Assembly (NCBI RefSeq): GCF_000512895.1
Contig: NZ_CP007033.1
Location: 2,033,001 to 2,097,000, forward strand
DNA length: 64,000 nucleotides
Origin: Dehalobacter restrictus DSM 9455
GTDB taxonomy: Bacteria > Bacillota > Desulfitobacteriia > Desulfitobacteriales > Syntrophobotulaceae
Direction of reading: 5' to 3'
Below, piece after piece: positions 1,745 through 55,367 of this stretch (position 1 is its first letter; the number at the start of each line of letters is the position of its first letter). The notes beneath the pieces are model-generated. The model worked only from the letters and a program-made list of their open reading frames with translations. It was not told the DNA's origin and made no database searches. The translations under genes were made by a program, and so were the position numbers.

Positions 1745-2917
1745 TTAATAAATACCATACTCCATGACAAACTTGTTTACGGCGATGATATTTTCCGCCT
1801 TGCCGTCAGCTGCCGAAAGAAGTTCCTTATCGGTAGAGAAAATATATCCTCCGCCAGGAGCCAGATCATCCAATAATTCTTTCGCTTTAGTAATACATTC
1901 TTCCTTCGTGCCATATTGTAACAACGTTAACGGAAAAAGACCTAGTATACACATGGTATTTCCAAGCTTTTGTTTAAGCTCTTTAGGATCTCCGTGTTCG
2001 AACCATCCCAGTGTTTTTTTGACAGGTAATTCTTGAAGATGATCATAGTATCTTGACCAATCTCCTTCATAGAATGGCATTGGAATTACTCCATTAGCAA
2101 CGAAGGCCTCGATAATCGTTTTAAACATAGGCCAGTAAAATTTATCAAAATCTGCTGTTTTAAGCATAGTAGGCAAATGTAAAGGAAGTAGGATGATTTT
2201 GGGGTTTGCTTTCGGTGGTGTTGAAAACATCTGACCCATTCCAAACCTTATTACTAACGGAGTAAGTGCCTGCGCAGCCTCAAGCAATTCTTCAGGCCGA
2301 CGACGCATATCCATAAATGCGCCTTTAATACCCCGGAAGAAATCGGCAATCCAATCTAATGGCATTATTGCTAAACCATCAAATAGCATAGGTATTCCAT
2401 ACTGGGTTATTAGATTAGCCTCTGCAGCTCCCTTTTTCGCTCCATACATACCAAATTGCATAGCGCCTTTTGCTAGTGCTAAATCCTTTGCAGGTGAATC
2501 TTTTGCCAATTCCGAATATTTCCGCGGCAAAACTTTTTCCACCATGAACCTAAATGGGTCTTTAATGAATTCAGGATATTCTTCGCTAGTCATTACTTCC
2601 GCATTCTCATCTGAATATTGAACAATGTTGCTTTCATTCAAATAATGAAAAGATTTACTGCCCAAAGCCTGATACATGCCACCGGGTCTGGCGTAAAACA
2701 TGTGCAAGACGTCCATCGGTATGTCGTTAACTACTTTTAGAAGGGACTTACTGCATTTATCCAAATCCCAGTTGGATTCGGAGTCAGTGTACCCTGCATA
2801 GTAGGAAGACCATGTTCCAAGAGCGGAAGAGATCGGAACGCGATCCGGTTGTTCTAGATTAATGGCTTTGTAAACTCTTTCTACACGTTTTTGGTAAAGG
2901 TTCATTATTTCACTCAT
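1745..2917 (-). CDS. UroD/MtaA-like corrinoid methyltransferase (cassette 1)
   Basis: This is a 390-aa protein of the uroporphyrinogen decarboxylase/MtaA/CmuA superfamily, with an N-terminal LEQPDRVPI typical of the fold. In the cytoplasm it would move a methyl group to or from the cobalt of the corrinoid protein encoded just upstream (gap 3 bases). Where MtaA-type enzymes carry the zinc-binding HxCG, this protein reads FYEGDW, followed by HLQELP and, later, EHGDPKE and TMCILG. The thiol-methyltransferase zinc site is therefore not visible. Function as a heme-pathway decarboxylase is unlikely from length and context. Methyl donors could be methoxy, N-methyl or halomethyl compounds. The substrate is unknown. 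Confidence 0.85.
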   Translation of the reverse strand: MSEIMNLYQKRVERVYKAINLEQPDRVPISSALGTWSSYYAGYTDSESNWDLDKCSKSLLKVVNDIPMDVLHMFYARPGGMYQALGSKSFHYLNESNIVQYSDENAEVMTSEEYPEFIKDPFRFMVEKVLPRKYSELAKDSPAKDLALAKGAMQFGMYGAKKGAAEANLITQYGIPMLFDGLAIMPLDWIADFFRGIKGAFMDMRRRPEELLEAAQALTPLVIRFGMGQMFSTPPKANPKIILLPLHLPTMLKTADFDKFYWPMFKTIIEAFVANGVIPMPFYEGDWSRYYDHLQELPVKKTLGWFEHGDPKELKQKLGNTMCILGLFPLTLLQYGTKEECITKAKELLDDLAPGGGYIFSTDKELLSAADGKAENIIAVNKFVMEYGIY

Positions 2918-2920
2918 CGA

Positions 2921-3559
2921 TCAACCCACCCATCTTTGGCATATTTTGACACCTTCAGCGGCGTTTGTCGAAAAGGCGTCCGCCCCTATGCTTTGACATA
3001 CATTCTCATTAACGGGTACGCCGCCGATAATCACCTTGACTGAATTTCTAAGGCCCGCATTGTTCAGTCCATCAACTGTTTCTTTCATACTATCCAGCGC
3101 TAAGGTCAGTACGCCGCTTAAGCCGACAATATCAGGGTTAACTTCTTTAACCTTGTCCACGATCTGGCTGACCGGAACATTGATCCCCAGGTCGATTACC
3201 TCAAAATTTGCGGCTTCAACCATGGATCTGAAAATATTTTTACCTATGTCATGAAGATCTCCGAAAACAGTAGCCAGGACAATCATTCCGCCTTTTGCTG
3301 AGGAATCTGCACTTAAAGCCGGTTTGAGCTTGTCCATTACACTTTGCAACACTTCCCCGGCAAAGACCAAGTCTCCGATAAAGTACTCGCCCGAATCATA
3401 GCGTTCACCTACGAGCGTCATACCTTGCTGACAGGCCTTAACAACTTCTTGAACTTCTGCAGTATTGTCGTCTTTGCTTAGCGCTTCATCAATCGCCTTG
3501 TTTAACACGTCTTCGTCCAAATCGGACATCGCTTGAGTCAGGACTTTTAAATCCACCAC
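2921..3559 (-). CDS. corrinoid (B12-binding) methyl-carrier protein, cassette 1
   Basis: This 212-aa protein has the two-domain layout of MtaC/MtbC/MtvC carriers. A helical cap comes first (about residues 1-88), then a Rossmann-type B12 domain. The cobalt-ligand motif DxHxxG is seen as DLHDIG (His103), the SxL region as GLSGVLT (about 147-152) and the GG loop as IIGG (about 177-180). It carries the methyl group between methyltransferases as methyl-cob(III)alamin. Two GTG codons in tandem can start it, with AGGAGG about ten bases upstream. It is the first gene of the cassette, and the same order recurs at 13.3, 53.8 and 56.0 kb. Confidence 0.93.
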   Translation of the reverse strand: MVDLKVLTQAMSDLDEDVLNKAIDEALSKDDNTAEVQEVVKACQQGMTLVGERYDSGEYFIGDLVFAGEVLQSVMDKLKPALSADSSAKGGMIVLATVFGDLHDIGKNIFRSMVEAANFEVIDLGINVPVSQIVDKVKEVNPDIVGLSGVLTLALDSMKETVDGLNNAGLRNSVKVIIGGVPVNENVCQSIGADAFSTNAAEGVKICQRWVG

Positions 3560-3659: not shown

Positions 3660-3792
3660 AATTTAATAAATCTTAGCGCTTACTAAGGGTATAATTTATA
3701 TATTTTAAATTTTCAAAATTATTTACCGTATTATTTATACAACAGTTTCTACCCAAATTGTGGATTATTTTTATTGGCATAACAAATAATAA

Positions 3793-3883: not shown

Positions 3884-3926
3884 TGTGTCTTGATTCACAT
3901 ATCTCCAGAAACAGAAATGATATGAT
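3884..3926 (+). promoter_or_regulatory. CRP-like box plus -10, promoter of CRP/FNR gene
   Basis: TGTGT-CTTGAT-TCACA (3884-3899) is a near-symmetric CRP-type box. A -10 hexamer TATGAT starts 22 bases after the box (3921-3926). This matches class II activation geometry, with the box centred about 41 bases before the start site. The same arrangement occurs at 8031, 26916, 29108 and 35011. Its position in front of a CRP/FNR gene suggests autoregulation. Confidence 0.6.
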
Positions 3927-3962
3927 AGGGTATAGGGGAATCTGTATGCGGAGGTGATTGCA

Positions 3963-4637
3963 GTGTTTGACTATTCTATTTTCCCATGGGAACCTTCATC
4001 TAAAGAATTATTTGATTTTATGAAGACGAATGGTCAACGTTTTACTGTAAGCAAAGGAGAAAGAGTCATAAATACCGGTGAACAAATAAACTACATCCAG
4101 TGTGTCGAAAAAGGAACATTGAAGACTATGATGTTAAGTAAAGATGGAAGACAAAGAACAGTGAGTATTATTCAAGCCGGAGGACTTTACGGTTTAGTTC
4201 CCGTACTTTTGGAAGTAAAATCTTCTCCCCTTGAGATAAGGGCTTGTGAAGACAGCACAATTTGTTATATCACCAAAAATCAATTCTTTGAAAAAATTAA
4301 TGCTAACCCCATCTTGGCCTTTATTTTTATGAACTACTTGAGTAATTACGCTATTGCACTTGTAGAAAATTTTGAATCTCTTTGGTTTTTTAATCCAAGA
4401 CAGCGCTTTTTACTATTCTTACGTAATCTTTATTCACTCAATCACTTGGAATATGATCATTGGTATAAAGCCCCTTACATCCTTACTCATCAGGAAATTG
4501 CCGAATCTATTGGTGCTACGCGTGAATTTGTTACGAAACAATTCTCTGATTTAAAGAACAAAGGTATGATCAAAGTCATCGATCGGAATATCTATTTCCC
4601 TAAAGACTTCAAATCATGGGTTGAATCCCAATTATAA
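3963..4637 (+). CDS. CRP/FNR-family regulator with CRP-like recognition helix
   Basis: This 224-aa regulator has an N-terminal cyclic-nucleotide-type beta-roll, a long dimer helix and a C-terminal winged helix. The GTG at 3963 is preferred, because GGAGGT lies seven bases before it while the upstream GTG at 3954 is inside that ribosome site. The recognition helix reads ATREFVTK and so keeps the Arg-Glu pair that CRP uses to read the GTG half-site. The other eight CRP/FNR proteins in this window do not. Its own promoter carries a TGTGT-N6-TCACA box. It probably controls the adjacent rdh operon and other boxes in the island. The effector is unknown. Confidence 0.85.
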   Translation: MFDYSIFPWEPSSKELFDFMKTNGQRFTVSKGERVINTGEQINYIQCVEKGTLKTMMLSKDGRQRTVSIIQAGGLYGLVPVLLEVKSSPLEIRACEDSTICYITKNQFFEKINANPILAFIFMNYLSNYAIALVENFESLWFFNPRQRFLLFLRNLYSLNHLEYDHWYKAPYILTHQEIAESIGATREFVTKQFSDLKNKGMIKVIDRNIYFPKDFKSWVESQL

Positions 4638-4883: not shown

Positions 4884-6062
4884 CTACTCGGTTTTATTCA
4901 TCGGCATTTGGTGCTGGGTAACTTTCTCAGGTGAGTGCACCAGTTTTCCGAGTCTACGCCTGACTTTGGCGCAAATATCCAAAAAAGCACCTACCGGACA
5001 GAAGCAATCGCACCAGAATCGATAGATAAAGATGGACGCTGTCATAATCACAAGCAATAATAGCCAATTAAGAAAAGTCCCTGTAAGACCAAACAACGTG
5101 CCAAATGGTTCATAACTGCCAATAGCCGGGTTCCGGTACAGGAAAGTTAAAAGTAAGCCAGACCACAACAGTATCTTAGGCAATAATCTCAGGAGCTGAT
5201 TAGATACCCTTCGGCACTTGCTGCGACCTCTTACCATACTTGTTAATTCTTGTACCCCCCCGAAAGGACACAGCCAGTAACAGTATAGGTTGCGTCCTGA
5301 AAAAAGAGCGATTCCTAAACCACCTAGTACGATTACATACCAAATCATATTACTGTGTATAGGGGGCCAATACCCCATCAATAATGCCGAGATAGAAGAT
5401 AAGGATATCTGGATCTTAAGCCAGAATCCAAAGATAATGACTGCAGCAAGTAAAGTAATATACCGCATTTTGGACTTTTTCCACACCAAGCTTAGGACCC
5501 ATACGGCTAAAAGCAGAATGATTGCGCTTGCTTCCGCTAACCCAAACTTCCAGGATTCCGGCTTTTCCGATATGCTTAGACCAAGTTGATTGACTGCCAC
5601 TTCGTGACTTCCCTGTCGTACAGCATTGGCGATAGCCCTGGAACTTACCGTGGCCCCGGTGACGTAATCAATGTCAGCACCCAGTTCAATCGGATCATTT
5701 GCTTTTATGTTCTTAAACTGATCCAGAAATTTTGCCTTTAAGACTTTGTTCAAAAAACTAGGCGTCTCTCTGCTCTCCACAACCACAACCTGTTGGATCT
5801 CCCCCAGCGGATCAATTACTGCAGCTACCTTCATTGGCCCGCCGTAACCATTGGCCTCTCCAAATACGACATAATAATGTTCCTTGCCGTTGCTTTGATC
5901 CGTTTTAAAAGTTGGAGGGTTGTTACTTATTTTTTCAAAGTTTGTTTGTGGCAAAACCTGTTTCATGTAAAGGAGTTCATCCTTCTCTGCTGCCATATTG
6001 GAATATGCCAAAGCCCCAATCAATATAGCAACCGCAACAACTATCATTATGCGTTTTAACAT
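4884..6062 (-). CDS. rdhC: RdhC: NosR/PceC-like membrane FMN-binding protein
   Basis: The start is ATG at 6062, with GGAGG eight bases upstream. A longer reading has no ribosome site. The 392-aa product has an N-terminal membrane helix, then an extracytoplasmic FMN-binding domain with the flavinylation motif TGATVSS, where ApbE would attach FMN to Thr. Five or so membrane helices follow, with two CxxxCP motifs (CYWLCP and CDCFCP) as in NosR and PceC. Its proposed role is moving electrons from menaquinol toward exported RdhA, or helping its maturation. That role is inference. It follows rdhA after a strong hairpin. Confidence 0.92.
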   Translation of the reverse strand: MLKRIMIVVAVAILIGALAYSNMAAEKDELLYMKQVLPQTNFEKISNNPPTFKTDQSNGKEHYYVVFGEANGYGGPMKVAAVIDPLGEIQQVVVVESRETPSFLNKVLKAKFLDQFKNIKANDPIELGADIDYVTGATVSSRAIANAVRQGSHEVAVNQLGLSISEKPESWKFGLAEASAIILLLAVWVLSLVWKKSKMRYITLLAAVIIFGFWLKIQISLSSISALLMGYWPPIHSNMIWYVIVLGGLGIALFSGRNLYCYWLCPFGGVQELTSMVRGRSKCRRVSNQLLRLLPKILLWSGLLLTFLYRNPAIGSYEPFGTLFGLTGTFLNWLLLLVIMTASIFIYRFWCDCFCPVGAFLDICAKVRRRLGKLVHSPEKVTQHQMPMNKTE

Positions 6063-6098
6063 TATTGCATCCTCCAGGAAGTTTGACTTATAATGATA

Positions 6099-6124
6099 TG
6101 CCGGCTCCCGCTTGAGAGCCGGCA
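6099..6124 (-). promoter_or_regulatory. intercistronic hairpin between rdhA and rdhC
   Basis: TGCCGGCTC pairs perfectly with GAGCCGGCA around an 8-base loop. On the minus strand there is no T-run after it, so it looks like an attenuator or RNA-processing stem that would reduce rdhC expression relative to rdhA. On the plus strand it is followed by seven T. Confidence 0.6.
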
Positions 6125-6140
6125 ATTTTTTTAGTTATAC

Positions 6141-7544
6141 TTACTTCTTCGTACTTCTTGGAAAGAATTTATTAGGATCCTGCGCCCACCAGCTTGCCAC
6201 ATCTTTGGGTTCTGAATAGCCTAACATTTTTTCCATCTTGACAAGCGTGGACCCTAGCGTCGGCGCCAAATGCGCTGCTAACTTATGCATTTCGGTTTTG
6301 GGTTTATTGTACGGACAATAATGAACACAGTTACCACAAGCACTTATGTTGTGATCATCCCAATACGCTTTGCATTTACAAGCATCGAACGGCCACTTTT
6401 TAACACCATAATTTGTAGTGGAATATACGGCTTCGGAAGTACGATTATTATCCTTGGAAATAGATCCTGAAGGACAATTTTCGGCGCAAAGCCCACAGGT
6501 CTCACAGAACTTGGTCACTCCCATATCTATGGGTTTATCCGGCTGGATAGGCATGTCGGTGATAACACCGCAAATACGCAGACGAGGTCCAAAGTCCGGG
6601 TTGATGAGCAGACCATTCCTTCCCATTTCCCCCAGCCCTGCATCGACAGCCATTGGAATTCCCAATCCTGGTCCATAACTGCCAAATGGCCAAGCACGGT
6701 AACCCATATAATTAATAAAGAGAGCCAAGTGCATAATCAAGAATTTATCAAAGCTGTACGCCCGATACGTTTCAGCTATCTCAACACAAGAAAGGGTTCG
6801 CTGGTAAGCCTCGTAGTCCATTTCAATACCACAGACGATGACGTTATTCATCTCTTGAGGCAATTCATCATCGACGTGCGGCATTTGTAATTTTTTTCTT
6901 TCTTCGGGTGTCATCACCGGTCCCAACAGGCCTTTTTCAAGACCAAACACTTTTGTAAATAAGTCTTTGGCATCCGTCTTCCAATTCTCAACGTGATACC
7001 GGTGACTATAAAGCCAATCTCTATTAAGCTTACATGTCCCCACAACGCTTGCGCCAAAATGCTTAGCGGCCATTTTCACAGTCTGGGCTGCTTCTTCCGG
7101 AGTCGTCGTGTATGGTTGTGTTAATCCTGGAGGCAGTTCTGGCTCCCACAGATGCGACGCAGCAAAGCTGCCGATTTTAAACATCAGCGCGGAACTCATA
7201 AATAATGACAGATCACGATGATCAAACCCAGGTTTTGGTGTACCGGTAGCGATATTTCTTAAAGTATCATGAAAGGCTGTCATCCCTTGCGGGCCAAACA
7301 TATAAAACGACTGGCTTTCATCCCAATACCCGCGGGAATGAGCGTTATTTCTATTATCAAATCGCCCGACTTCACCTTCAACCTCATAAGGCGGTTTATC
7401 CACTCTGGGGTATTCCAGCGCACTCGCAGCACCGTCTCCGATCAACTTTTCTCTTGCTCCGGGCGTAAGTGTCAATAAACTGGTCAGAGCTCCCGTCAGT
7501 GCAGTACTTTTTAGAAAGGACCGTCTGCTAAGTTTTTTAGACAT
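6141..7544 (-). CDS. rdhA: reductive dehalogenase RdhA
   Basis: This 467-aa precursor has a Tat signal (RRSFLK at residues 7-12, then a hydrophobic stretch). The C-terminal ferredoxin-like region holds CETCGLCAENCP (about 347-358) and a second cluster CGNCVHYCP (about 403-411) with an upstream Cys pair CKC, giving the two [4Fe-4S] clusters of the family. The middle region forms the corrinoid-binding core. It would reduce carbon-halogen bonds at the outer face of the membrane. It is translated just downstream of rdhB and upstream of rdhC. It is not of the CprA or PceA subtype seen elsewhere in the window. The substrate is unknown. Confidence 0.95.
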   Translation of the reverse strand: MSKKLSRRSFLKSTALTGALTSLLTLTPGAREKLIGDGAASALEYPRVDKPPYEVEGEVGRFDNRNNAHSRGYWDESQSFYMFGPQGMTAFHDTLRNIATGTPKPGFDHRDLSLFMSSALMFKIGSFAASHLWEPELPPGLTQPYTTTPEEAAQTVKMAAKHFGASVVGTCKLNRDWLYSHRYHVENWKTDAKDLFTKVFGLEKGLLGPVMTPEERKKLQMPHVDDELPQEMNNVIVCGIEMDYEAYQRTLSCVEIAETYRAYSFDKFLIMHLALFINYMGYRAWPFGSYGPGLGIPMAVDAGLGEMGRNGLLINPDFGPRLRICGVITDMPIQPDKPIDMGVTKFCETCGLCAENCPSGSISKDNNRTSEAVYSTTNYGVKKWPFDACKCKAYWDDHNISACGNCVHYCPYNKPKTEMHKLAAHLAPTLGSTLVKMEKMLGYSEPKDVASWWAQDPNKFFPRSTKK

Positions 7545-7545
7545 A

Positions 7546-7863
7546 TTATGCTTTTTCTCCTTTCGTTAACTTGGCAATAATGTTTTTTCTAAAGAATTTG
7601 CTGACCAATAATTGAGCAACAGCAACAATAACGATCCCAATAATACCCATTAAGAATAATCCGACTATTCCGGCTTTGGGTTGCCCCTCCCATACTCCCA
7701 TGTAGAGCCAATATACGAGAAAATCTACATAGAGTGTAACAAATATTGATAATACCCAGTTCCAGATGCCGAACTTGCGGTTCTTCTTTTCCACAGACTT
7801 TTTGTATAATTGAATAAGCAATACCGTAGCAAGACCCAAAATATATGCGATAATTCCACCCAT
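7546..7863 (-). CDS. rdhB: RdhB membrane anchor
   Basis: This is about 105 aa with three membrane helices, the size and layout of RdhB proteins that tether RdhA to the membrane. The ATG at 7863 puts the first helix right at the N-terminus, as in every other rdhB here. A longer frame back to a TTG at 7929 adds about 20 basic, low-complexity residues and lacks a ribosome site. A GGGAG lies 14 bases before the ATG, so GTG at 7875 is an alternative start. A stronger AAGGAGGGG about 95 bases further upstream has no start codon behind it. Here rdhB precedes rdhA, as in cprBA. Confidence 0.8.
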   Translation of the reverse strand: MGGIIAYILGLATVLLIQLYKKSVEKKNRKFGIWNWVLSIFVTLYVDFLVYWLYMGVWEGQPKAGIVGLFLMGIIGIVIVAVAQLLVSKFFRKNIIAKLTKGEKA

Positions 7864-7992
7864 ACTATCGACCACGTCTCCCTTCTTCTCTACTTTTCCT
7901 TTTCTTTGTAATTTTTGCTTTTTTACCAATTTTTTTGTGACCTGAACCTAAATATCCCCTCCTTGTAAATACTTTTTTCAACTTCATACGTC

Positions 7993-8048
7993 ATCCGCTT
8001 CATAATATAAAGCATAATGTTAGAATTTTCTGTGTTACGATACACATA
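7993..8048 (-). promoter_or_regulatory. conserved promoter module with CRP-like box (copy 1, rdhBAC operon)
   Basis: Minus strand: box TGTGT-ATCGTA-ACACA (8031-8046) with five-base perfect arms, and -10 TATTAT 24 bases on (8002-8007). The whole block of about 55 bases aligns with 26879-26933 and 29071-29125, including an ATCCGC/ATTCGC end. It drives the rdhB-rdhA-rdhC operon through a leader of roughly 130 bases. Confidence 0.65.
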
Positions 8049-8121: not shown

Positions 8122-8820
8122 TTAGTACTTTAAAACTTCATTAATCATAGAAGCTAATTTTGAAAGATTGTAAATGTAAATCTTATCTTTTGTTTTTTTG
8201 AGTATTCTCTGCTCTTCTAGCATTTTAAACAGTTTACTCACTGAAACATAATGAGTTCCAGTAATGTCTCCAATAGTTTTTTGCGTTAGTTTGGTGTTTA
8301 TAATGTAATAATTGTCCACAAGCTTTCCTTCAGAGATACAGAGATTATATATAAACCGTAATATTCTGCTTGACGGCCGGTAATAACTTAAATCCCTTGT
8401 TTTAGCCATAAGACAATAAGACTTATCAAGAATATTTTGAATAACTTCCAGAAGTACCTGTTTATCCTCATTAAATATTTCCAGAATATCTTCAAGCGCA
8501 AAAAAGTAAACCGTACTTTTTCTGATCGCATAAACCTGAACTTCGCTATTGTCTTCATTTGAATTGATTGTTGCCCCGATCGTTTTTTCATTAACATGAA
8601 AAAGAAATTTGGTACAGCCATCATCTGAACCAATGCTTACACCCAGGCATCCGGACTTGACATAAAGAATAGAATTAGCATTTTTACCCTGAGCTTGAAC
8701 AATTGCTCCTTTAGGAAATATACGTTTATGTGCCAGATGCAAGTACTTCTCTAGTCTTTCAATTTTTTCAAAATTCTCAAGCATATAAGGTCGGGGAATT
8801 TGCTTCTTATTATCATCCAT
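8122..8820 (-). CDS. CprK-type CRP/FNR regulator of organohalide respiration
   Basis: This 232-aa protein has the same length as CprK. The N-terminal effector domain is a beta-roll (KGAIVQAQGKNANSILYVKSG region). The DNA-binding helix region TIGDITGTHYVSVSKL matches the CprK pattern ITGxHxVTVS. CprK proteins bind chlorinated phenols and activate rdh promoters. The effector of this one is unknown. It sits directly upstream of and codirectional with the rdhBAC operon, separated by a terminator and a CRP-like promoter. Several cysteines (Cys58, Cys68) are present, but a redox switch cannot be claimed. Confidence 0.88.
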   Translation of the reverse strand: MDDNKKQIPRPYMLENFEKIERLEKYLHLAHKRIFPKGAIVQAQGKNANSILYVKSGCLGVSIGSDDGCTKFLFHVNEKTIGATINSNEDNSEVQVYAIRKSTVYFFALEDILEIFNEDKQVLLEVIQNILDKSYCLMAKTRDLSYYRPSSRILRFIYNLCISEGKLVDNYYIINTKLTQKTIGDITGTHYVSVSKLFKMLEEQRILKKTKDKIYIYNLSKLASMINEVLKY

Positions 8821-11423: not shown

Positions 11424-12593
11424 TTACTTAGAGCCATATTCCACAATAAATTCCGTAACAGCTTTTAAATTTTCTGCCTTGGCATCATTTTTAGTTGCCA
11501 AAACTTTGTCCGGTGCAAAGACAAATCCACCACCCGGAGCTAAATCATCAATTAAGCCCTTGGCAACTTCGATGCATTTTTCCTTTGTTCCGTAGTACAG
11601 GTCGTTTGTCTTTAAACCACCGGCAATACACATCGTTTTTCCTAAAGCTTTCTTCGCCTTTCTCAGATCATCTTCTTCAAAGAATCCAATGACCGATCCC
11701 TTTGGAAGCTCCTGTATATACTCATACAGATGTTCCCAATTCTTTTCAAATAGAATGAGAATTTTAATACCTCTTGCTGCAACCGTATCAACATATTTTT
11801 TGAAGGACGGCCAGTAAACCTTTTCAAACTCTTTCGCTCTGATAAATTGCGGCAAATGCAGATATAAATGAACATACTTGTCATCGGAAACAGTATGCAT
11901 TTTTCCATATGTGTCTTTGATCAAAGGGTCGACCATAGCCATACAGGCTTCAGCCACTTTATCAGGACATTTTTTGATATCTCTCATAATCCCTTTGAAA
12001 TCCCTTAAATAGTCCATGATGATATCACCGGGCATAAAATGATTTACACCCGCGTTGGTTATCGGAAGCCCATGTTCAGTTTTGAACCTATCCGACAACA
12101 TCTTTGTTGTTTGACCAAACTTAAAGAAGATGGAAAGGGAATTGGCATATTTCGCGAACTTTTCTTCCACTGTCCCCTCTTGGAAAATCTTATGTTTTCT
12201 TGGAAGAATTTTGTCACGGATAAATTTCATCGGATCGGCAATAAGCTCATCATACTCTTCTACCGCCATAAGTTCAGATTGTCCAGTGGCGATTTGAATG
12301 GTTTCCGTCGCATTGTTAAAAATTCCGCCGCCTAAGGAATACACAAAATTAAGGGGAAAGGTTATGCGTGAGGCAAGCGCGCCATCAAAGGGAAAATCAG
12401 TTAAAGCTTTAGAATAAGCTTTATATTCAAGTTCAACGTCTTTTAATCCCTCTTCTAAGGTTATCCCATAATAAGAAAGAGCCCAATTGTCTACCAGACC
12501 GTAAATAGGAACCCTGTCCGGTTCTCTTAATTCGATGGCATCTTTGAGCCTTTTGACACGTTCGTCATATAATTTCATTTTATCATCACTCAT
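11424..12593 (-). CDS. UroD/MtaA-like corrinoid methyltransferase (diverged cassette)
   Basis: This 389-aa member of the UroD/MtaA superfamily starts with the LREPDRVPI motif. The end DDLAPGGGFVFAPDK matches the catalytic-barrel C-terminus of the other three copies. At the position of the HxCG zinc motif it reads LFEKNW, and EEDDL replaces the EHGDP of the others. The metal site and substrate pocket therefore differ both from MtaA and from its paralogues. AGGAGG precedes the ATG. It follows the corrinoid gene by 49 bases. It may use a different methyl donor from the other cassettes. Confidence 0.82.
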   Translation of the reverse strand: MSDDKMKLYDERVKRLKDAIELREPDRVPIYGLVDNWALSYYGITLEEGLKDVELEYKAYSKALTDFPFDGALASRITFPLNFVYSLGGGIFNNATETIQIATGQSELMAVEEYDELIADPMKFIRDKILPRKHKIFQEGTVEEKFAKYANSLSIFFKFGQTTKMLSDRFKTEHGLPITNAGVNHFMPGDIIMDYLRDFKGIMRDIKKCPDKVAEACMAMVDPLIKDTYGKMHTVSDDKYVHLYLHLPQFIRAKEFEKVYWPSFKKYVDTVAARGIKILILFEKNWEHLYEYIQELPKGSVIGFFEEDDLRKAKKALGKTMCIAGGLKTNDLYYGTKEKCIEVAKGLIDDLAPGGGFVFAPDKVLATKNDAKAENLKAVTEFIVEYGSK

Positions 12594-12642
12594 ACTAGAT
12601 CCTCCTGTGCTATTTATTCACAAGTTTTCTTGGTTGCGGGTT

Positions 12643-13278
12643 TTAACCCACCCACTTCTGGCATATTTTTACTCCTTCTGCTGCATTCGTGGTAAATGCA
12701 TCAGCACCAATTGTTTCACAAGCTTCCTTCGTTACAGGGTTTCCACCGATAATAACTTTAACTTTGCTGCGTAATCCCGCTTCTTCTAAAGCCTCAACAA
12801 TATTTTTCATCGATTCCAATGCTAACGTCAAAACACCGCTTAAACCAATAATTTCAGGATTTACCTCTTTTACTTTTTTTACAAATTCACCAGCTGATTG
12901 ATCGATACCCAGGTCGTATACTTTAAAACCTGCTGCTTCAGCCATGCTCTTAAAAATGTTTTTTCCAATGTCATGTAAGTCACCTGCAACAGTTCCAAGC
13001 ACCATTGAACCGACAGTTCCAGCATTTTGGGTGTCCATAATCGGCTTTAAAATATCAATTGCACTGGTTAACAACTCCCCGGCAAAGATCAAATCACCGA
13101 CAAAGTATTCCCCCTTTTCAAAAAAATCTCCGACTACTGACATCCCGCTCTGACAAGCAGCTACCACCTTTTTGGTTTCATCTGGACTGGGATTTGTGTT
13201 AACAAATTCATTCAGCATTTCAAATACTTTTTCTTCATCAAGTTCTCCAATTTTCTGTGTTAATAGCGACAAATCCAT
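12643..13278 (-). CDS. corrinoid methyl-carrier protein (diverged cassette)
   Basis: This 211-aa two-domain corrinoid protein has a cap helix domain, then DLHDIG (cobalt-binding His at about 103), GLSGVLT and IIGG. It begins MDLSLLTQKIGELDE, whereas the other three begin VDLKVLTQAM, so it is an older paralogue. AGGAGGTAA lies ahead of its ATG. It is the first gene of the cassette. Cobalt would cycle between Co(I) and methyl-Co(III), and a separate activator is needed but none is encoded in this window. Confidence 0.92.
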   Translation of the reverse strand: MDLSLLTQKIGELDEEKVFEMLNEFVNTNPSPDETKKVVAACQSGMSVVGDFFEKGEYFVGDLIFAGELLTSAIDILKPIMDTQNAGTVGSMVLGTVAGDLHDIGKNIFKSMAEAAGFKVYDLGIDQSAGEFVKKVKEVNPEIIGLSGVLTLALESMKNIVEALEEAGLRSKVKVIIGGNPVTKEACETIGADAFTTNAAEGVKICQKWVG

Positions 13279-14930: not shown

Positions 14931-15242
14931 TCATGCTGATACTGATTCATTGTCTTTTATTTTTCTAGTACCGATGAATCCTAGCAGGCGCGCTAAAATC
15001 ACTGCAATTACAACTGCAATTCCTCCAAATAAGAAGATGGCTGTACTTGTTGCCTTGGCGTGACCGACAGTGGCATTAATGTAAACAAAGGAAACTCCCA
15101 TCCATAAGACAGCGCTCCCAACTACGTATAAAGCCCAAACAAGCACGGTCTTCCACATGACATCCTTTTTGGCACGCGGTTTAATAAACAAAATTCCGGC
15201 TAAAAATAATATCCCAGCTAAGAAAATTAATATAGTTCCCAT
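14931..15242 (-). CDS. rdhB: RdhB membrane anchor (intact partner of duplicate 1)
   Basis: This 103-aa three-helix anchor starts at the ATG of MGTILIFLAG, with GGGAGGTG upstream. The first helix and IKPRAKKD loop are followed by INATVGHAKATSTAIFLFGG and an Arg/Lys-rich end. It overlaps the ribosome site of the rdhA behind it. The copy at 26831 has the same N-terminus but is frameshifted, so this is the functional version of the pair. Confidence 0.92.
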   Translation of the reverse strand: MGTILIFLAGILFLAGILFIKPRAKKDVMWKTVLVWALYVVGSAVLWMGVSFVYINATVGHAKATSTAIFLFGGIAVVIAVILARLLGFIGTRKIKDNESVSA

Positions 15243-15367
15243 TATCTTTTCACCTCCCTTTTTATGCATATTGTATATGATTAAGATTTTCTCCGTGTTT
15301 GCCCTGACTACTTACATAAATTAATTTGTAAAAAAACTAATTTGATTAAATTACTTTGACTTTTCTA

Positions 15368-25132: not shown

Positions 25133-26506
25133 TTAATATTCGAACTTATACAGTTCCGGCCATTCCAACCACCATTTATATTTATCGACAATCTCTGTGC
25201 CATAACCAAACATATCATCAATACCTTTTAAGAGGCTTGAAGCAGTTTCCCCTTTGCTTCCAATCCAAATTCCGGCCTCGTGAAACCATGAACTTTCCTT
25301 GGAACTCCATGGACATACCTTAATACAAACGCCGCAGCTAACTCCTTGATCATTACCTGCCCTAAATTGTGCGCACTTTTTGAAATCGCTGTTCCAACGC
25401 AAATAGCCGTTATAATCTACCATATCCCTGTCATGCGTGATAGCTTGGGAAGGACAATTATCGGCGCACTTATTGCACACACGGCAGAAATCCGCCATTC
25501 CGAAATCAATTGGCTTATCCGGGACCAAAGGCAAATCCGTGGTGATGGCTGCCACTTTATTGCGGAACCCCATACGCGGGTGGGCAACACAATCCCCGGT
25601 CCGGGTAAGTTCCCCCATCCCTGCAGCGATTAAACAGGGCGCCATTACGGCTCCATAGTTGCCAAAATGATGTGCTCTGGCATGGTATCCAAGCTCTCTG
25701 ATGTATTTAGCCATAATGATAGAAATGTTGGCGGTCGCATGATAACAGCGGAAAGATTGGGAATCTGAAATTCCGTCATATCCGGTTGAGGCCAAGTAAG
25801 TCTCTAAATGCTGCTCAACCGCAACAACGATGACATAGGGCATCTTCTCCGTAAAGGGTACATCTTGAAGGGGCGTCCCCCTTGGCACCATACCGCCGAT
25901 AATTCCCATCATCGGGGGATTCATTTTATCAGAGTAATAACCGTATTCAGGCATCTTCCCGATTCCGACTTCATCAGCTCTCAGATAGTAAGCAACATCT
26001 TTAATATGCATGGACATTTGCTCGGGATCAGGTATCGGAAGTTTCTCCGGTTTGGGCTGACCATCAACGATGTTTTCTCCGAATATGGGGGAAATAGCCC
26101 AACCGAGCGCATCACTCAGCGGGTGTCTAATACCGATCGTATAGAACCCCGCCTGTGCCTTGGGTCCTAAGAGACCTTGGGCAACTAACGCAAATCCCAT
26201 ATCTTTTTCTTTAAACTTCTTTACCGTCCCTACAATTTTGGAGGTGCCAAGCCATTGGTCATTGTGCTCTGCGTAACTGACAGAAGCGCCTCCATAATTC
26301 GGTTCCGGTTTCAATTTAGACCATTGTCCTTTTTTGGGGGTGATGTATTCGTAGTTGCTTACCGCAGCTTCAGCTACTTTTGAGGGCGCTTTGATCGCGC
26401 CAAGAACACCTATTGCTGCTGCAGCCGCTCCAGTTTTCAAGAAACCTCGGCGGCTTACCTGAAGTTTTTCTTCTGGAGCATTTTTACTTTTTAAAGAATC
26501 TGCCAT
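25133..26506 (-). CDS. rdhA: CprA-like reductive dehalogenase (duplicate 2)
   Basis: The start is ATG at 26506 (MADSLKSK), behind AAAGGAGG. The 457-aa enzyme is identical to the one at 13543 through the corrinoid and Fe-S domains (CRVCNKCADNCP and CGVCIKVCP). It differs in the Tat signal region (AAIGVLGAIKAPSKV) and at the second-last residue. DNA differences are mostly silent and concentrated toward the 5' end. Its rdhB partner is frameshifted, so membrane attachment of this copy may depend on another RdhB. Confidence 0.94.
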   Translation of the reverse strand: MADSLKSKNAPEEKLQVSRRGFLKTGAAAAAIGVLGAIKAPSKVAEAAVSNYEYITPKKGQWSKLKPEPNYGGASVSYAEHNDQWLGTSKIVGTVKKFKEKDMGFALVAQGLLGPKAQAGFYTIGIRHPLSDALGWAISPIFGENIVDGQPKPEKLPIPDPEQMSMHIKDVAYYLRADEVGIGKMPEYGYYSDKMNPPMMGIIGGMVPRGTPLQDVPFTEKMPYVIVVAVEQHLETYLASTGYDGISDSQSFRCYHATANISIIMAKYIRELGYHARAHHFGNYGAVMAPCLIAAGMGELTRTGDCVAHPRMGFRNKVAAITTDLPLVPDKPIDFGMADFCRVCNKCADNCPSQAITHDRDMVDYNGYLRWNSDFKKCAQFRAGNDQGVSCGVCIKVCPWSSKESSWFHEAGIWIGSKGETASSLLKGIDDMFGYGTEIVDKYKWWLEWPELYKFEY

Positions 26507-26520
26507 CTTTTTTCCTCCTT

Positions 26521-26831
26521 TCATGCTGATACTGATTCATTGTCTTTATTTTCTAGTACCGATGAATCCTAGCAGGCGCGCTAAAATCACTGCAATTACA
26601 ACTGCAATTCCTCCAAATAAGAAGATGGCTCGTACTTGTTGCCTTGGCGTGACCGACAGTGGCATTAATGTAAACAAAGGAAACTCCCATCCATAAGACA
26701 GCGCTCCCAACTACGTATAAAGCCCAAACAAGCACGGTCTTCCACATGACATCCTTTTTGGCACGCGGTTTAATAAACAAAATTCCGGCTAAAAATAATA
26801 TCCCAGCCAAAAAAATCAATACAGTACCCAT
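26521..26831 (-). pseudogene. rdhB: rdhB anchor, frameshifted (duplicate 2)
   Basis: The first 68 or so codons match the intact anchor at 15242. An extra C in the sequence for ATSTA (GGCTCGTACTTG instead of GGCTGTACTTG, near 26629) shifts the frame. The third membrane helix is replaced by SHLLIWRNCSCN and the frame stops at 26553. Two single-T losses further on confirm decay. GGGAGGTG and the promoter module upstream are preserved. Confidence 0.85.
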
Positions 26832-26878: not shown

Positions 26879-26933
26879 ATCCGCTAATAATATAAAACAT
26901 AATTTTGAAATGTTCTGTGTTACTATGCACATA
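26879..26933 (-). promoter_or_regulatory. conserved promoter module with CRP-like box (copy 2)
   Basis: Minus strand: box TGTGC-ATAGTA-ACACA (26916-26931), and -10 TATTAT 24 bases downstream (26887-26892). It aligns over about 55 bases with the modules at 7993 and 29071. It drives the duplicated rdhBA pair. The paralogous pair at 13543-15242 lacks this module. Confidence 0.65.
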
Positions 26934-27040: not shown

Positions 27041-27536
27041 TTATTTAATTAGCTCAAGTACCTCTTCAACTACAATGTCGGAGAAAATATCATATACCTT
27101 GTCACCGGTTTCTTTCGTAGCGATTTGTGGATCGCCTAAATATGCCAAAGGAGCGCCTACATCTTTCCAGTCGTTTTTACCAGCAGAAATTCTCTCAAAG
27201 AGATGTTCTGCCTCATAATTAGGTTTTAGCTTAATTAATTCTTCCTGATCCACTAATTCGGGATGTCTAAGTAAGATTAAACCTGTTTCCCATTCTCCGG
27301 CATGAAAATCCCATTCCGGATGTTCTCCCTTGCATACTGAACTCATTCTAGGCAGTCCATGATGAAACCACGCGGATACCTTAACCTTTAATCCATCTTT
27401 TTTCACTGAAGCTCTTTTGATTCCTTCTTTGATCGCTTCGTTATTTTTGGGCTCGCCATGAGCGCATATAATGACTATTTTATCAAATCCCCATTTGGCT
27501 AAACCAAGACAAACGTCTTCTACAATATTAGGGAAA
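27041..27536 (-). pseudogene. creatininase-family amidohydrolase, C-terminal part (interrupted by IS)
   Basis: This is the downstream part of the gene whose 5' part lies at 28727-29015. Continuous coding runs from FPNIVEDVCLGLAKWGF through IVIICAHGEP to the metal-site block DFHAGEWETG and ends VVEEVLELIK. His and Glu of HAGEWET are the family's second metal-ligand pair. The 27640 end of the open frame lies inside the insertion and is not native. Creatininase-family proteins are cytosolic Zn/Mn amidohydrolases, among them MftE. A role in organohalide metabolism has not been described to my knowledge. Confidence 0.8.
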
Positions 27537-28726
27537 CACTGATTAAATCGCCCCCCGGACAAAAAAATGGTAAAATTAAAGAAAACAGTAACAGGTGGTA
27601 AAAATGGGGCAACAAACCTTTTCGGATATAGAATACTCAAACCGACGGAAGAAAACGAAACGAGAAGAATTTCTTGAAATAATGAACGAGATCATCCCCT
27701 GGGACGAATGGGTGGCGCTTATACAGCCGCACTATTTTGACGGTAAGCGCGGTCGTCCACCGCTCGGGATTGAAAAAATGCTGAGAATGTATCTGCTGCA
27801 GATATGGTTTAGCCTTTCTGACGAAGGTGTAGAGGATGCCATTTACGACAGTTACGCCATGCGAAAATTTATGGGAATAGACTTCATACATGAGCAGGCG
27901 CCGGATGCGACCACCCTGCTCAAATTCCGTCATTTGATTGAGGAAAGCGGCTTAGGGAAGGCATTCTTTGAGGCGATCAACCGTTGTTTGGAACAGTGCG
28001 GACATATCATGAAAGGTGGAACCATTGTTGACGCCACACTGATCAGCGCGCCATCCTCAACGAAGAACGCAAGCGGTAGCCGCGATCCGGAGATGCACCA
28101 AACAAAGAAGGGTAATCAGTGGTATTTCGGCATGAAATGCCATATCGGTGTGGACGCAGGGACCGGTTATATTCATGGTATAGCGGCAACAGGCGCAAAT
28201 GTGCATGACATAGCCGAAGCGTCAAAGCTAATGAGGCCGGAAGACGAGGTTTTCTACGGTGACGCCGGATATTTGGGACTAAATAAACGACCGGAAATCA
28301 CAGAGGACCCTCACAAATCACAAATTGATTACCGTATCGCTGAGCGTCCCGGAAAGAAACGCAGCATGGACAATGGCCCTGCACGGGATTTTTATTGCCA
28401 TATAGAGTTTCGGAAAGCGTCTGTCCGAGCCAAAGTGGAGCACGCCTTTCATATCATTAAGAACATATTTGGCTTCAAAAAGGTTTGTTATAGAGGAATT
28501 GCCAAGAATCTGAATAGACTGTATATGCTGGCCGCCAGCGCAAACCTGCTGATGTGCGCCCGAAGCGGCGGCTGGCGAAGCCAATGCGCGTAATCCGGGG
28601 ATAAGTACGCCTTTTTTCGAGAATTACTCGGAAAAGGCAGCTGAAATCGGCGGCGATAGGGCCGCTAACTTGGGATTATCCCACTTTATTATTTATTGGG
28701 ATGATAAAAAACGTTATTAATCAGTG
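27537..28726 (+). mobile_element. IS5-type insertion sequence inside creatininase-family gene
   Basis: This element of about 1190 bases is bounded by inverted CACTGATTAA (27537-27546) and TTAATCAGTG (28717-28726). Flanking sequence on both sides codes for one creatininase-family protein. A clear target duplication is not visible, so the exact ends may be a few bases off. It carries one transposase gene. GC content is higher than that of the host gene. Confidence 0.75.
27604..28593 (+). CDS. IS5-family transposase
   Basis: This is about 329 aa from the ATG at 27604, with AGGTGG five bases before it. A GTG at 27595 is inside the ribosome site. The N-terminal DUF772-like region reads YFDGKRGRPPLGIEKMLRMYLLQ. 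The catalytic core has GGTIVDATLI (Asp), VFYGDAGYLG (Asp) and RAKVEHAFHIIK (Glu), the IS5 DDE pattern. It appears intact, so the element may still be mobile. It is oriented opposite to the gene it interrupts. Confidence 0.93.
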   Translation: MGQQTFSDIEYSNRRKKTKREEFLEIMNEIIPWDEWVALIQPHYFDGKRGRPPLGIEKMLRMYLLQIWFSLSDEGVEDAIYDSYAMRKFMGIDFIHEQAPDATTLLKFRHLIEESGLGKAFFEAINRCLEQCGHIMKGGTIVDATLISAPSSTKNASGSRDPEMHQTKKGNQWYFGMKCHIGVDAGTGYIHGIAATGANVHDIAEASKLMRPEDEVFYGDAGYLGLNKRPEITEDPHKSQIDYRIAERPGKKRSMDNGPARDFYCHIEFRKASVRAKVEHAFHIIKNIFGFKKVCYRGIAKNLNRLYMLAASANLLMCARSGGWRSQCA

Positions 28727-29015
28727 GTTCCTTAGCAACAGTTTCAAATTTCAGAGTGATATTGCCATCAAATGAGTTTGCAATATCAGCTAAAGTATAA
28801 TGAAGTGTGGGAGCTATTAATGTTTCAATACCTTTGTCTTTCAATTTTTTGGCAGCTCGTTCAGTCATTTCGTTAGCACTCGTTACATCGACCTTCATTG
28901 GCAGATGTGTCCCATGAACTTCGCATGGTCCCATTGGAAATAGAGCAATGTTCGTCTTTTCTTCTAAATTCCTAACTTGCTTTGTTGTCATATTAGACAG
29001 ATAGTTAAGTTTCAT
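28727..29015 (-). pseudogene. creatininase-family amidohydrolase, N-terminal part (interrupted by IS)
   Basis: It begins MKLNYLSNMTTKQV. The first metal site reads FPMGPCEVHGTHLPMKVD, the creatininase ExHGxHLPxxxD pattern with Glu, His and Asp ligands. Coding continues to NITLKFETVAKE and is then cut by the IS5-type element. The rest is at 27041-27536. The gene is preceded by the same CRP-box promoter module as rdhB genes and lies upstream of an rdhBA pair. The insertion probably abolishes function. Confidence 0.8.
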
Positions 29016-29070: not shown

Positions 29071-29125
29071 ATTCGCTAACAATATATAGCATCATATTGA
29101 AATCTTCTGTGTTATTATTCACATG
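29071..29125 (-). promoter_or_regulatory. conserved promoter module with CRP-like box (copy 3, creatininase gene)
   Basis: Minus strand: box TGTGA-ATAATA-ACACA (29108-29123), and -10 TATTGT at 29079-29084 (24 bases on). It aligns with the rdhB promoter modules at 7993 and 26879. Its presence here suggests the creatininase-family gene was coexpressed with rdh genes. Confidence 0.65.
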
Positions 29126-29504: not shown

Positions 29505-30179
29505 TCATTCAATTAAGTTTTTAAGCCCTTGCAAGTCAAAGACTGTAATCTTATTTGTCGTTTTATGCAGAATATTTGCTTTTCTTAGATATCCGAATAG
29601 TTTGCAGACAGTCACATAGTGAATACCTGTCATTTCTGAGATAGACTTTTGAGATAATTTTACGTCAATTTGATAAACACCATCAACTAATTTCCCCTGA
29701 TTAATGCAAAGATCATAAAGCAAGCGCAAGACCCGGGCTGATGGGCTATAAACGGCCATCTCATGAGTTTCCCGCATAAAATAACTACATTTCGACGAAT
29801 AGGATGTAATGAATTCAAGAATCATTTCTTTATCCATCTGGAAGATCTCTGAAAGTTGTTCTTTGGAGAAAAAACATACTGTACTTTTTTCTACCGAGAC
29901 AACATGAACAGAGCAGGGATCAACCGGGAATAATCTGTCGGAAAAGGTATACGGATCCGCATAGAACATTATTTTTTTCCGTCCGTCTTCATTAAGAAAA
30001 CTTATACTTAGTTTCCCGGAAAGCACATAGATGATTCTATCTATTAACTCTCCGGGCAATACAATGGAATCGCCTTTACGATATTCACGGACAACGCCCA
30101 TGTGAATATAATTTTGCAGCTTCTTAATCGGATAAAAATGATTCGGCAAGGCCCCATAATTATTTGCTATTTTTTCCAT
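29505..30179 (-). CDS. CprK-type CRP/FNR regulator
   Basis: The start is ATG at 30179 (MEKIANNYG), with GGGAG nine bases upstream. The 224-aa product has effector domain features LPNHFYPIKKLQNYIHMG and the HTH ISEMTGIHYVTVCKLF, the CprK pattern with Cys replacing the usual Ser in the recognition helix. It lies upstream of the creatininase-rdhBA module on the same strand. The effector is unknown. Confidence 0.9.
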   Translation of the reverse strand: MEKIANNYGALPNHFYPIKKLQNYIHMGVVREYRKGDSIVLPGELIDRIIYVLSGKLSISFLNEDGRKKIMFYADPYTFSDRLFPVDPCSVHVVSVEKSTVCFFSKEQLSEIFQMDKEMILEFITSYSSKCSYFMRETHEMAVYSPSARVLRLLYDLCINQGKLVDGVYQIDVKLSQKSISEMTGIHYVTVCKLFGYLRKANILHKTTNKITVFDLQGLKNLIE

Positions 30180-30380
30180 ACTTTTATTCTCCCGCAAATG
30201 TAACATCCTTAAATTCAGACAATAAATTTAAATTATTATACTCCTTTTATAAATGATTAAACTATTAACTGTGATTTAGATAAAAATCTTATTCCCCGAA
30301 TCAATATTAACATAGAATAAGAATTCTGTATGTTATCCAGTATACAAATATAGAAAATGTTGAATACGATCAAAAGACAA

Positions 30381-30417: not shown

Positions 30418-31404
30418 CTATCCTTTTGCCAAATTCGCCTCCAGCAAGAAATCCATGGCAGTTCTTCGCAGCTGTTGGGTCTCCAACATCTTTAGCTCTC
30501 CAGCCAAATCCGCTGCTTGATTGTCTTGCTGACTTTTCCTTTTCTTCAACTGTTCTTTTGCCTGCTTCATTTCTTCGTCAGTCAGCTGAATCCCTTCTGC
30601 TTGAATCACTGCATCCAAAATTTTCTCGCCAAGAATTATTTTCGCAGCCTCTTCTTTACATTCAGCCAGCAGCTCATCAGCCGTTATCTTCCTTTGCATC
30701 AAGTAATGAATGAGTTCCATGTCGTGGACGGCCTTAAGCTCCTCGGCAAATTTTCGGTACAAATTCTCTGCCGCTTGCTTTAAGGTCTCTTCATCAAATT
30801 CATATTTGCTTTGATCGGCCAGAGCCTGAAATACTTTTTCGATGTTGGCTGCGCGTGCTATTGCCTTTTTCTCTTGGTTGATCTCTGCTGCTAAGAATTC
30901 TTTTAATTCCTGCAGCGTTTTTACTCGCGGTTCAATTTTCCGGATCATATCATCTGTCAATTCCGGCTCTTTTATACAATATACTTTTACAATCTCGACG
31001 GAAAAGGTGATAAGCTGCCCCCATAAGGCTTGGTATTCCAGTAAGACAGGTTGTATCGAGGTTTCAAATATCACTGTCTCGCCCATTTTCTTACCAAGCA
31101 GGTTGGCGGAGAATTCCTGTAAAACGTTTTCGTCACCCAATCTGAACTTAAAGCTTCTCTCTCTAAACTTCGGGACTGTCTTGCCATTCTCCGTCCCTTC
31201 AAAATTTACGATGACATAGTCTCCGGTTTCGATCGGTTCATTTTTTTCGACCTGGATCTCGTCCAAAGATTTCTTAACATAATTAAGCGCTTCGTTAAGT
31301 TCTTCTTCTTTGACGGAGACATCAAAACGATCGACGTTTAATCCTTTGTATTTTCCAAGTTCAAATTGTTTCATTCCGTCTCTAAGCTCTATGTTGACTG
31401 CCAC
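30418..31404 (-). CDS. rdhT: RdhT/PceT-like trigger-factor chaperone
   Basis: This 328-aa protein has an FKBP-type peptidyl-prolyl isomerase domain (GDYVIVNFEGTENGK to GKKMGETV, about residues 60-115) and a trigger-factor C-terminal helical domain. The N-terminal ribosome-binding domain is largely missing, as in PceT, which binds the Tat signal of the PceA precursor until corrinoid and Fe-S clusters are in place. The GTG start is preceded by GGAGG at six bases. It is last in an operon with rdhA, rdhB and rdhC. A close paralogue lies at 42714. Confidence 0.9.
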   Translation of the reverse strand: MAVNIELRDGMKQFELGKYKGLNVDRFDVSVKEEELNEALNYVKKSLDEIQVEKNEPIETGDYVIVNFEGTENGKTVPKFRERSFKFRLGDENVLQEFSANLLGKKMGETVIFETSIQPVLLEYQALWGQLITFSVEIVKVYCIKEPELTDDMIRKIEPRVKTLQELKEFLAAEINQEKKAIARAANIEKVFQALADQSKYEFDEETLKQAAENLYRKFAEELKAVHDMELIHYLMQRKITADELLAECKEEAAKIILGEKILDAVIQAEGIQLTDEEMKQAKEQLKKRKSQQDNQAADLAGELKMLETQQLRRTAMDFLLEANLAKG

Positions 31405-31432
31405 TTGAAACCTCCTCCCCTTCCGGAAATTT

Positions 31433-31636
31433 TTAACGGTCTGCCCGGATAATGCCTACTGATTGAAGCATTACGATGATGTGAGCTGCTCCCAGTATCA
31501 GTATTAAGGCAATAAATAGCAGATTCTTTATTTTCAGGCTTTGTTGCTTTTCTCTTGGTTCAATCCTTGGTTCTACCTTTGGTTCCCTATTCGGTTCCAT
31601 TTTTGGTTCCCTATTTTGTTCCACATTTGTTTCCAT
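31433..31636 (-). CDS. small single-pass membrane protein overlapping rdhC 3' end
   Basis: This 67-aa protein has an N-terminal acidic repeat (EPKMEPNREPKVEP) and one membrane helix (about residues 39-58, LLFIALILILGAAHIIVML). The first 64 bases are shared with the end of rdhC in another frame. Both frames are repetitive. It is conserved at 43727 with the same overlap. No known family is recognised. Placement between rdhC and rdhT suggests a part in the membrane complex. Confidence 0.65.
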   Translation of the reverse strand: METNVEQNREPKMEPNREPKVEPRIEPREKQQSLKIKNLLFIALILILGAAHIIVMLQSVGIIRADR

Positions 31637-32826: not shown

Positions 32827-32878
32827 CTTTTTTCATCCTTCGCTGTTTTTGAGAATGAATATAATAGACGTAATAAAG

Positions 32879-32918
32879 TACGCAAGCCACTATGCCAAAC
32901 GGATAAGTGGCTGGCGTA
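32879..32918 (-). promoter_or_regulatory. intercistronic hairpin between rdhB and rdhC
   Basis: AAGCCACT pairs with AGTGGCT and outer TACGC pairs with GCGTA. The stem is imperfect, with one bulged base. The second pceABCT-like operon has the same AAGCCACTTA stem at 45160-45207. It lacks a strong T-run, so partial termination or RNA processing is more likely than full termination. Confidence 0.6.
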
Positions 32919-32947
32919 TTTTAAAAGCATCTTATTCCTTCATTTAT

Positions 32948-33265
32948 CTAGACTGAGGTGGTTGCAGAATTATTTTTGCTCTTCTTTTCTGAACGGTTTA
33001 ATAGTCTATACGTAATAATACCCGGAATGAGCGTTGCACCTCCAAAAAAGACAAACCCCATAGAGACAGCCTGGTATTCATGCTCAAGAAGGCTGGCGTA
33101 CGCCCATGCTAAAGTAAATATAAATAAGAAGTTCGTAAGAAAACCACAAAGCTGTATTGGAATCGTATTTTTTGCTTTGCTTTTTGAATACTGCCAAATA
33201 CCAAATTGAATAAAGAGCATTAACATACCGAAAAACATCCAAACAAAGTCATTCGCAATTTTCAT
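32948..33265 (-). CDS. rdhB: RdhB/PceB-like membrane anchor
   Basis: This 105-aa protein has three membrane helices. Blocks such as IQFGIWQYSKSK, EYQAVSMGFVFFGG and IPGIITYRLLNR match the PceB pattern. It anchors the PceA-like enzyme encoded just upstream (gap 15 bases). Gene order is A-B-C-small ORF-T, as in pceABCT. Only one ATG fits the first helix. Confidence 0.92.
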   Translation of the reverse strand: MKIANDFVWMFFGMLMLFIQFGIWQYSKSKAKNTIPIQLCGFLTNFLFIFTLAWAYASLLEHEYQAVSMGFVFFGGATLIPGIITYRLLNRSEKKSKNNSATTSV

Positions 33266-33280
33266 TTTAGTTTCCCTCCT

Positions 33281-34982: not shown

Positions 34983-35026
34983 ATTGTAGGCTATCCTAAA
35001 TTATTGTCTCTGTGTCTAGGAACACA
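34983..35026 (-). promoter_or_regulatory. CRP-like box and -10 upstream of PceA-like gene
   Basis: Minus strand: TGTGT-TCCTAG-ACACA (35011-35026), perfect five-base arms, then -10 TACAAT 23 bases on (34983-34988). The start codon lies 72 bases past the box. The geometry matches the boxes at 3884, 8031, 26916 and 29108. Confidence 0.6.
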
Positions 35027-53119: not shown

Positions 53120-53122
53120 TGA

Positions 53123-55364: not shown

Positions 55365-55367
55365 TAA

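Follow-up and report, generated by a model that had tools for sequence, protein, structure and literature searches.

Candidate GTG-N8-CAC operators of CRP/FNR-family activators in place of the dehalobox in an organohalide respiration island of Dehalobacter restrictus

Introduction

CRP, whose recognition helix has the form SRE..R, binds GTG-N8-CAC, and its residues Arg180 and Glu181 go with the GTG of the half-site. CRP/FNR activators of organohalide respiration that act at class II promoters are likewise a known class of mechanism. In Desulfitobacterium, the dehalobox (DB7 and DB8, served by CprK/RdhK proteins) is a palindrome near -41.5 before rdh operons, DB7 itself being centred near -41.5, and CRP/FNR-family regulators are encoded alongside (PMC7062800). 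Val192 of CprK, the counterpart of FNR Glu209, goes together with an A, not a G, as the third base of the half-site (PMC2610375). NtcA sites, GTAN8TAC, also lie near -41.5 (PMC3898017). For D. restrictus, three rdhUV copies are given in the literature, and the genome paper describes pceA as an exception that lacks a nearby CRP/FNR regulator.

The five promoters described here resemble the class II CRP sites of Escherichia coli and GlxR-like sites in the TGTG...CACA palindrome, the centre-to-centre distance and the -10 spacing, and crp3954, a regulator encoded next to two of the boxes, carries the R-E helix signature of CRP. They differ from the E. coli class II site (TGTGA-N6-TCACA) at the fifth base, which is T, A or C, and in being confined to one dehalogenase island. 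Like the dehalobox they are palindromes with family regulators encoded alongside, and their -10 spacing predicts a centre near -41.5, but their half-sites are GTG/CAC instead of TTA/TAA, and the best-matching regulator has Arg-Glu in its recognition helix, whereas dehalobox regulators have His-Val. NtcA belongs to the CRP/FNR family and its sites have the -41.5 position (PMC3898017) predicted for the boxes, but the third base of all five boxes is G, not A; boxes of a similar TGTA type adjoin NRV/SRV regulators of the island.

Results

The window, by which we mean the whole 64-kb stretch of DNA analysed, contains CRP/FNR regulators, several rdhBA, rdhBAC and rdhABCT operons and four rdhUV-like pairs, a content that fits rdh "cluster B" of D. 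restrictus PER-K23. The D. restrictus genome (G000, 2.94 Mb) was compared with related Dehalobacter species (G001, G002 and G004) and with G003. The rdhUV-like pairs, corrinoid-protein/methyltransferase-like genes named according to PMC9888536, lie at window positions 1745-3559, 11424-13278, 51947-53758 and 54189-56006, and three of the four have dehalobox-like sites with a -10 hexamer at class II spacing.

A sequence-only reading had placed boxes at 3884, 8031, 26916, 29108 and 35011. All five are present and are the sole TGTG-N8-CACA matches within the window, against 0.53 expected, and the count of 5 was reached in 0 of 100 shuffles. Box A (TGTGTCTTGATTCACA, 3884-3899, plus strand), which emerged from both the window count and the genome-wide search for box plus -10, lies upstream of crp3954 (3954-4637, plus strand), with a -10 hexamer, TATGAT, at 3921-3926 on the same strand. 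The remaining four boxes and their promoters are on the minus strand. Box B (TGTGTATCGTAACACA, 8031-8046; -10 TATATT at 8004-8009) fronts the rdhBAC operon at 4884-7929 (rdhB 7546-7929, rdhA 6141-7544, rdhC 4884-6125). Box C (TGTGCATAGTAACACA, 26916-26931; -10 TATATT at 26889-26894) fronts an rdhBA pair at 25133-26831 (rdhB 26553-26831, rdhA 25133-26524), and box D (TGTGAATAATAACACA, 29108-29123; -10 TATATT at 29081-29086) fronts a creatininase-family gene at 27041-29015. Box E (TGTGTTCCTAGACACA, 35011-35026; -10 TACAAT at 34983-34988) fronts the pceA-like rdhABCT operon at 30418-34939 (rdhA 33281-34939, rdhB 32948-33265, rdhC 31573-32826), whose last gene, rdhT (30418-31404), is trigger-factor-like. 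Thus B, C and E stand before rdh operons, A before a regulator gene and D before a creatininase gene. These targets, which the earlier reading had named, were upheld by open reading frames, translations and Pfam, although two of them are broken in this strain. An Rfam search returned no element overlapping the five promoters.

In every case the -10 hexamer lies on the side of the gene that the box fronts, starting 22 bases past boxes A-D and 23 bases past box E. From this spacing, the box centres would fall at -41.5 (A-D) and -42.5 (E) relative to the predicted starts, which is the class II position. The class II geometry proposed earlier, with the -10 at 22-24 bases, is supported, but for B-D the TATTAT or TATTGT chosen at 24 overlaps a TATATT whose place at 22 is better. 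The GTG-N8-CAC core of a CRP-type operator is present in all five boxes. The fifth half-site base is A in just one half-site each of A and D and is otherwise T or C, so that none of the boxes matches the consensus TGTGA-N6-TCACA.

Genome-wide, the pattern TGTG-N8-CACA-N20-24-TANNNT had five matches in 2.94 Mb, boxes A-E alone, with 0 in the reversed control. Outside the window, TGTGT-N7-CACA occurred at two sites (527,138 and 2,792,900), both within unrelated coding frames; the many equally good boxes in unrelated coding DNA that might have been feared were not seen. The looser pattern of GTG-N8-CAC plus a -10 showed no excess over the genome (29 matches versus 28 in the control), which indicates no broader regulon built on this form. 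This last count, together with the derivation of B, C and D from one event (see below), is what can be said for the five being chance palindromes in AT-rich intergenic DNA. We regard chance as highly improbable, given that the exact box with its -10 is found in the island alone and that boxes are conserved between species where the flanks differ. The restriction to rdh cluster B also bears on a global CRP- or HcpR-like regulator acting from outside the island in a redox or carbon response. TGTG-N8-CACA is a classical CRP-type site and the genome has other R-type CRP/FNR genes, but there are no sites of box plus -10 outside the cluster, and the only Arg-Glu regulator besides crp3954 is a paralog linked to pceA; such a regulator is very unlikely.

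The boxes do differ in sequence from TTAAT-N4-ATTAA, as had been noted: neither this dehalobox nor its close variant TTAGT-N4-GCTAA occurs at the five promoters. The accompanying idea of a second control layer on organohalide genes fared less well, because no dehalobox, with up to 1 mismatch allowed, was found within -200 to +60 of any box promoter. The rdhUV and rdhK promoters of the same island do carry dehaloboxes, with equal -10 spacing, as exemplified by TTAGTAAGCGCTAA (3673-3686, minus strand; canonical type, -10 TATATT), which fronts the rdhUV genes at 2921-3559 and 1745-2917. The two operator types thus look mutually exclusive, and the TGTG boxes look like an alternative specificity that replaces the dehalobox rather than a layer added to it. 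The window has 18 dehalobox-like sites with a -10, compared with 5-15 in shuffled sequence, and a weak one taken singly may be due to chance.

Boxes A and B recur in G001 and G004, and the other three in G002; B is identical in G001 and G004, and C, D and E match letter for letter in G002. Box A of G004, TGTGTATCGATTCACA, keeps both half-sites with a changed spacer, and the sequence upstream of it is unrelated to that of D. restrictus (z 1.3). For the box D orthologs, all 16 of 16 box positions agree while the upstream sequence does not align (z 0.3), the conserved block beginning at the box. The z values of the boxes themselves are 7-8 for A and D, where conservation starts at the box; the upstream flank is partly conserved for B, C and E, and box conservation consequently adds less there. 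At rdh promoters, the extended pattern of B-E was found in Dehalobacter alone among the 74 genomes of the order searched. Taken together, exclusivity, class II spacing and conservation indicate that the boxes are probably operators of CRP/FNR-family activators.

In G004, box A (L039 8448-8463) has a second -10, TATAAT, at 22 bases on the opposite side, facing rdhUV, and so stands between two divergent promoters, those of crp3954 and rdhUV. The corresponding rdhUV operon of D. restrictus and G001 carries the dehalobox TTAGTAAGCGCTAA instead, an apparent operator swap at the rdhUV promoter between G004 and D. restrictus. Two other matches were rejected as regulon members: a TGTG match common to G001 and G003 lies within unrelated coding DNA, and a further one in G003 has amino-acid biosynthesis genes around it.

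Across the box and roughly the next 50 bases, promoters B, C and D can be aligned at 71-78% identity (z about 8). Upstream of the box they show no alignment (z -0.5 to 0.8), and the genes behind them are unrelated, comprising rdhB of two distinct types and a creatininase. An alignment that starts at the box with unrelated genes behind it points to the copying of a small promoter module whose 5' edge is the box. As copies of one module, the three do not count as separate events, and the five boxes would represent about three independent origins. Beyond the box itself, promoters A and E have no flank in common with the other three.

In D. restrictus, C and D front broken genes, both of which are intact in G002. 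The rdhB behind box C is frameshifted relative to a near-identical paralog at 14931-15269, and the rdhBA pair may for that reason be non-functional. An IS, whose transposase gene (Pfam DDE_Tnp_1) occupies 27595-28593 on the plus strand, splits the creatininase gene into pieces at 28689-29015 and 27041-27640, the two halves covering positions 2-85 and 84-236 of the Pfam Creatininase profile. The intact creatininase copy of a related species of Dehalobacter lies at L078 4390-5160.

The protein encoded by crp3954 scored above cut-off with Pfam PF00027, PF13545 and PF00325 (cNMP_binding, HTH_Crp_2 and Crp), which places it in the CRP/FNR superfamily. Its similarity to CprK structures, at about 25 bits, is not the close one of the RdhK/CprK subfamily; RdhK29505 scores about 200 bits. 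The recognition helix, GATREFVTK, has the Arg-Glu-x-x-x-Arg/Lys arrangement of CRP. Among the CRP/FNR regulators read from the genome, an Arg-Glu helix was found only in crp3954 (TREFVTK) and in the pceA-linked paralog (TTREYVTLH). The gene is adjacent to boxes A and B, and three species have it together with these boxes. On the strength of the helix, the adjacency and the co-occurrence, crp3954 is the likely binder of A and B.

The paralog is 43% identical and lies at L040 9436-10140 (genome 2,414,436-2,415,140), about 1.8 kb upstream of an rdhABCT operon at 2.41 Mb that is taken to be pceABCT. The rdhA of the box E operon is 67% identical to that of the 2.41-Mb operon. No TGTG box was found in the paralog's own neighbourhood.

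Other regulators of the island agree with the pairings of CprK and NtcA: His-Tyr/Phe/His-Val proteins sit by TTA boxes, and Asn/Ser/Thr-Arg-Val proteins by TGTA boxes such as TGTAGT-N4-ACTACA. The NtcA recognition helix is STRVTVTR. Half-sites at neighbouring promoters were associated with regulator type, Arg proteins with "TG" and those of the His-Tyr/Phe/His kind with "TT" (5/13 versus 1/46; Fisher P 0.001, an exploratory association found after looking). TGTAGT-N4-ACTACA boxes, of the NtcA-like GTA-N8-TAC type, were also observed at the L043 5889-6590 and L155 8296-9006 promoters, where they front CRP/FNR genes of the INRIT type in rdh cluster A.

A competing reading holds that the binders are CprK-like, with RdhK8122 (8122-8820, minus strand; helix THYVSVSK) on A and B and RdhK29505 (29505-30206, minus strand; E 3e-58 to CprK structures) on C, D and E, and that the boxes are divergent dehaloboxes. 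RdhK8122, encoded upstream of rdhBAC, is the regulator nearest upstream of box B. Its orthologs occur in D. restrictus, G001 and G004, the species with A and B, just as those of RdhK29505 occur in D. restrictus and G002, the species with C, D and E; moreover, the homology of promoters B, C and D suggests binders from one subfamily. Both proteins, however, have Val at the position of CprK Val192, which pairs with A and not G. The nearly identical helix GVHYVTVCKIF belongs to a paralog that adjoins an ATAAT-N4-ATTAT box, the promoter of RdhK29505 itself carries AGAAT-N4-ATTCT, and RdhK29505 of D. restrictus is without the C-terminal residues through which CprK contacts DNA. We consider CprK-like binding of the boxes somewhat unlikely.

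Assignment of C, D and E to crp3954 meets a difficulty in G002. No ortholog of crp3954 or other Arg-Glu regulator was found in its draft assembly. The missing segment is flanked by the end of contig C110 and the start of contig C125, and contig C5 starts inside an rdhU copy and runs into amino-acid biosynthesis genes. As no contig holds the segment and C5 continues into other genes, the crp3954 block is probably absent from G002, and an assembly gap alone is the less likely explanation. If so, C, D and E would need another binder in that species. RdhK29505 is a linked, co-occurring candidate, though its helix predicts a TTA-type box. Its ortholog in G002 is 94% identical and has a normal tail, so the short C-terminus in D. 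restrictus, which lacks residues corresponding to the DNA-contacting region of CprK, is a loss by local frameshift; adaptation to the 6-base spacer was rejected on the same ground.

For box E, a second candidate comes from a homologous promoter, that of a sibling pceA-like operon in G002, with the diverged box TGTGCT-N4-AGCATA. This box adjoins a crp41941-type regulator (TRVTVCR), making a binder of that type possible for E. These observations feed the reading that the boxes are not one regulon: A would be a crp3954 site, B, C and D a duplicated module, and E one of the TGT[AG]-type sites that pceA-like operons have, with a crp41941-type binder, the resemblance being partly convergent. The sibling promoter beside its TRVTVCR regulator, the further pceA-like operons with TGTATC-N4-GATATA, and the lack of any flank shared by A and E with B, C and D all fit it. 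The exclusivity of box plus -10 to the island, genome-wide, is easier to explain with shared binders. We take this to be a serious possibility, although we lean against it. The earlier notion of one regulon under one protein is in any case not established, given the ancestral promoter shared by B, C and D, the kinship of E with its sibling, and the presence of C, D and E in G002 without crp3954.

Discussion

The explanation that we favour, with moderate confidence, is that the five boxes are GTG-N8-CAC operators of CRP/FNR activators used instead of the dehalobox, with crp3954 acting at A and B. Dimeric activators of this family, bound to the boxes at about -41.5, would make contacts with RNA polymerase of the kind made at class II CRP promoters, and within the dehalobox system of organohalide-respiring Firmicutes the boxes would represent a variant with CRP-type specificity. 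Bound to A and B, crp3954 would switch on both its own gene and rdhBAC, the operon convergent with it. C, D and E would be bound by crp3954 or by a linked paralog, either RdhK29505 or, for E, a crp41941-type protein. We infer that the signal would be an organohalide.

A more ambitious form of the proposal has crp3954 alone running a dispersed organohalide regulon through GTG-N8-CAC, spread as a copied cassette, with orthogonal TTA, GTA and GTG specificities set by two helix residues; we judge it unlikely. Neither the DNA specificity nor the copied promoter module has a precedent in the literature searched, and the boxes themselves may have earlier mention.

In Dehalobacter, where rdh operons and CRP/FNR regulators number in the dozens, linking regulators to targets is hard. 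A clean operator class combined with a helix rule (His-Val with TTA, Arg-Val with GTA, Arg-Glu with GTG) would yield testable regulator-target pairs, suited to in vitro tests that need neither culturing nor genetics of these organisms. The same findings suggest that regulators which are paralogs within one island may avoid cross-talk by altered DNA specificity.
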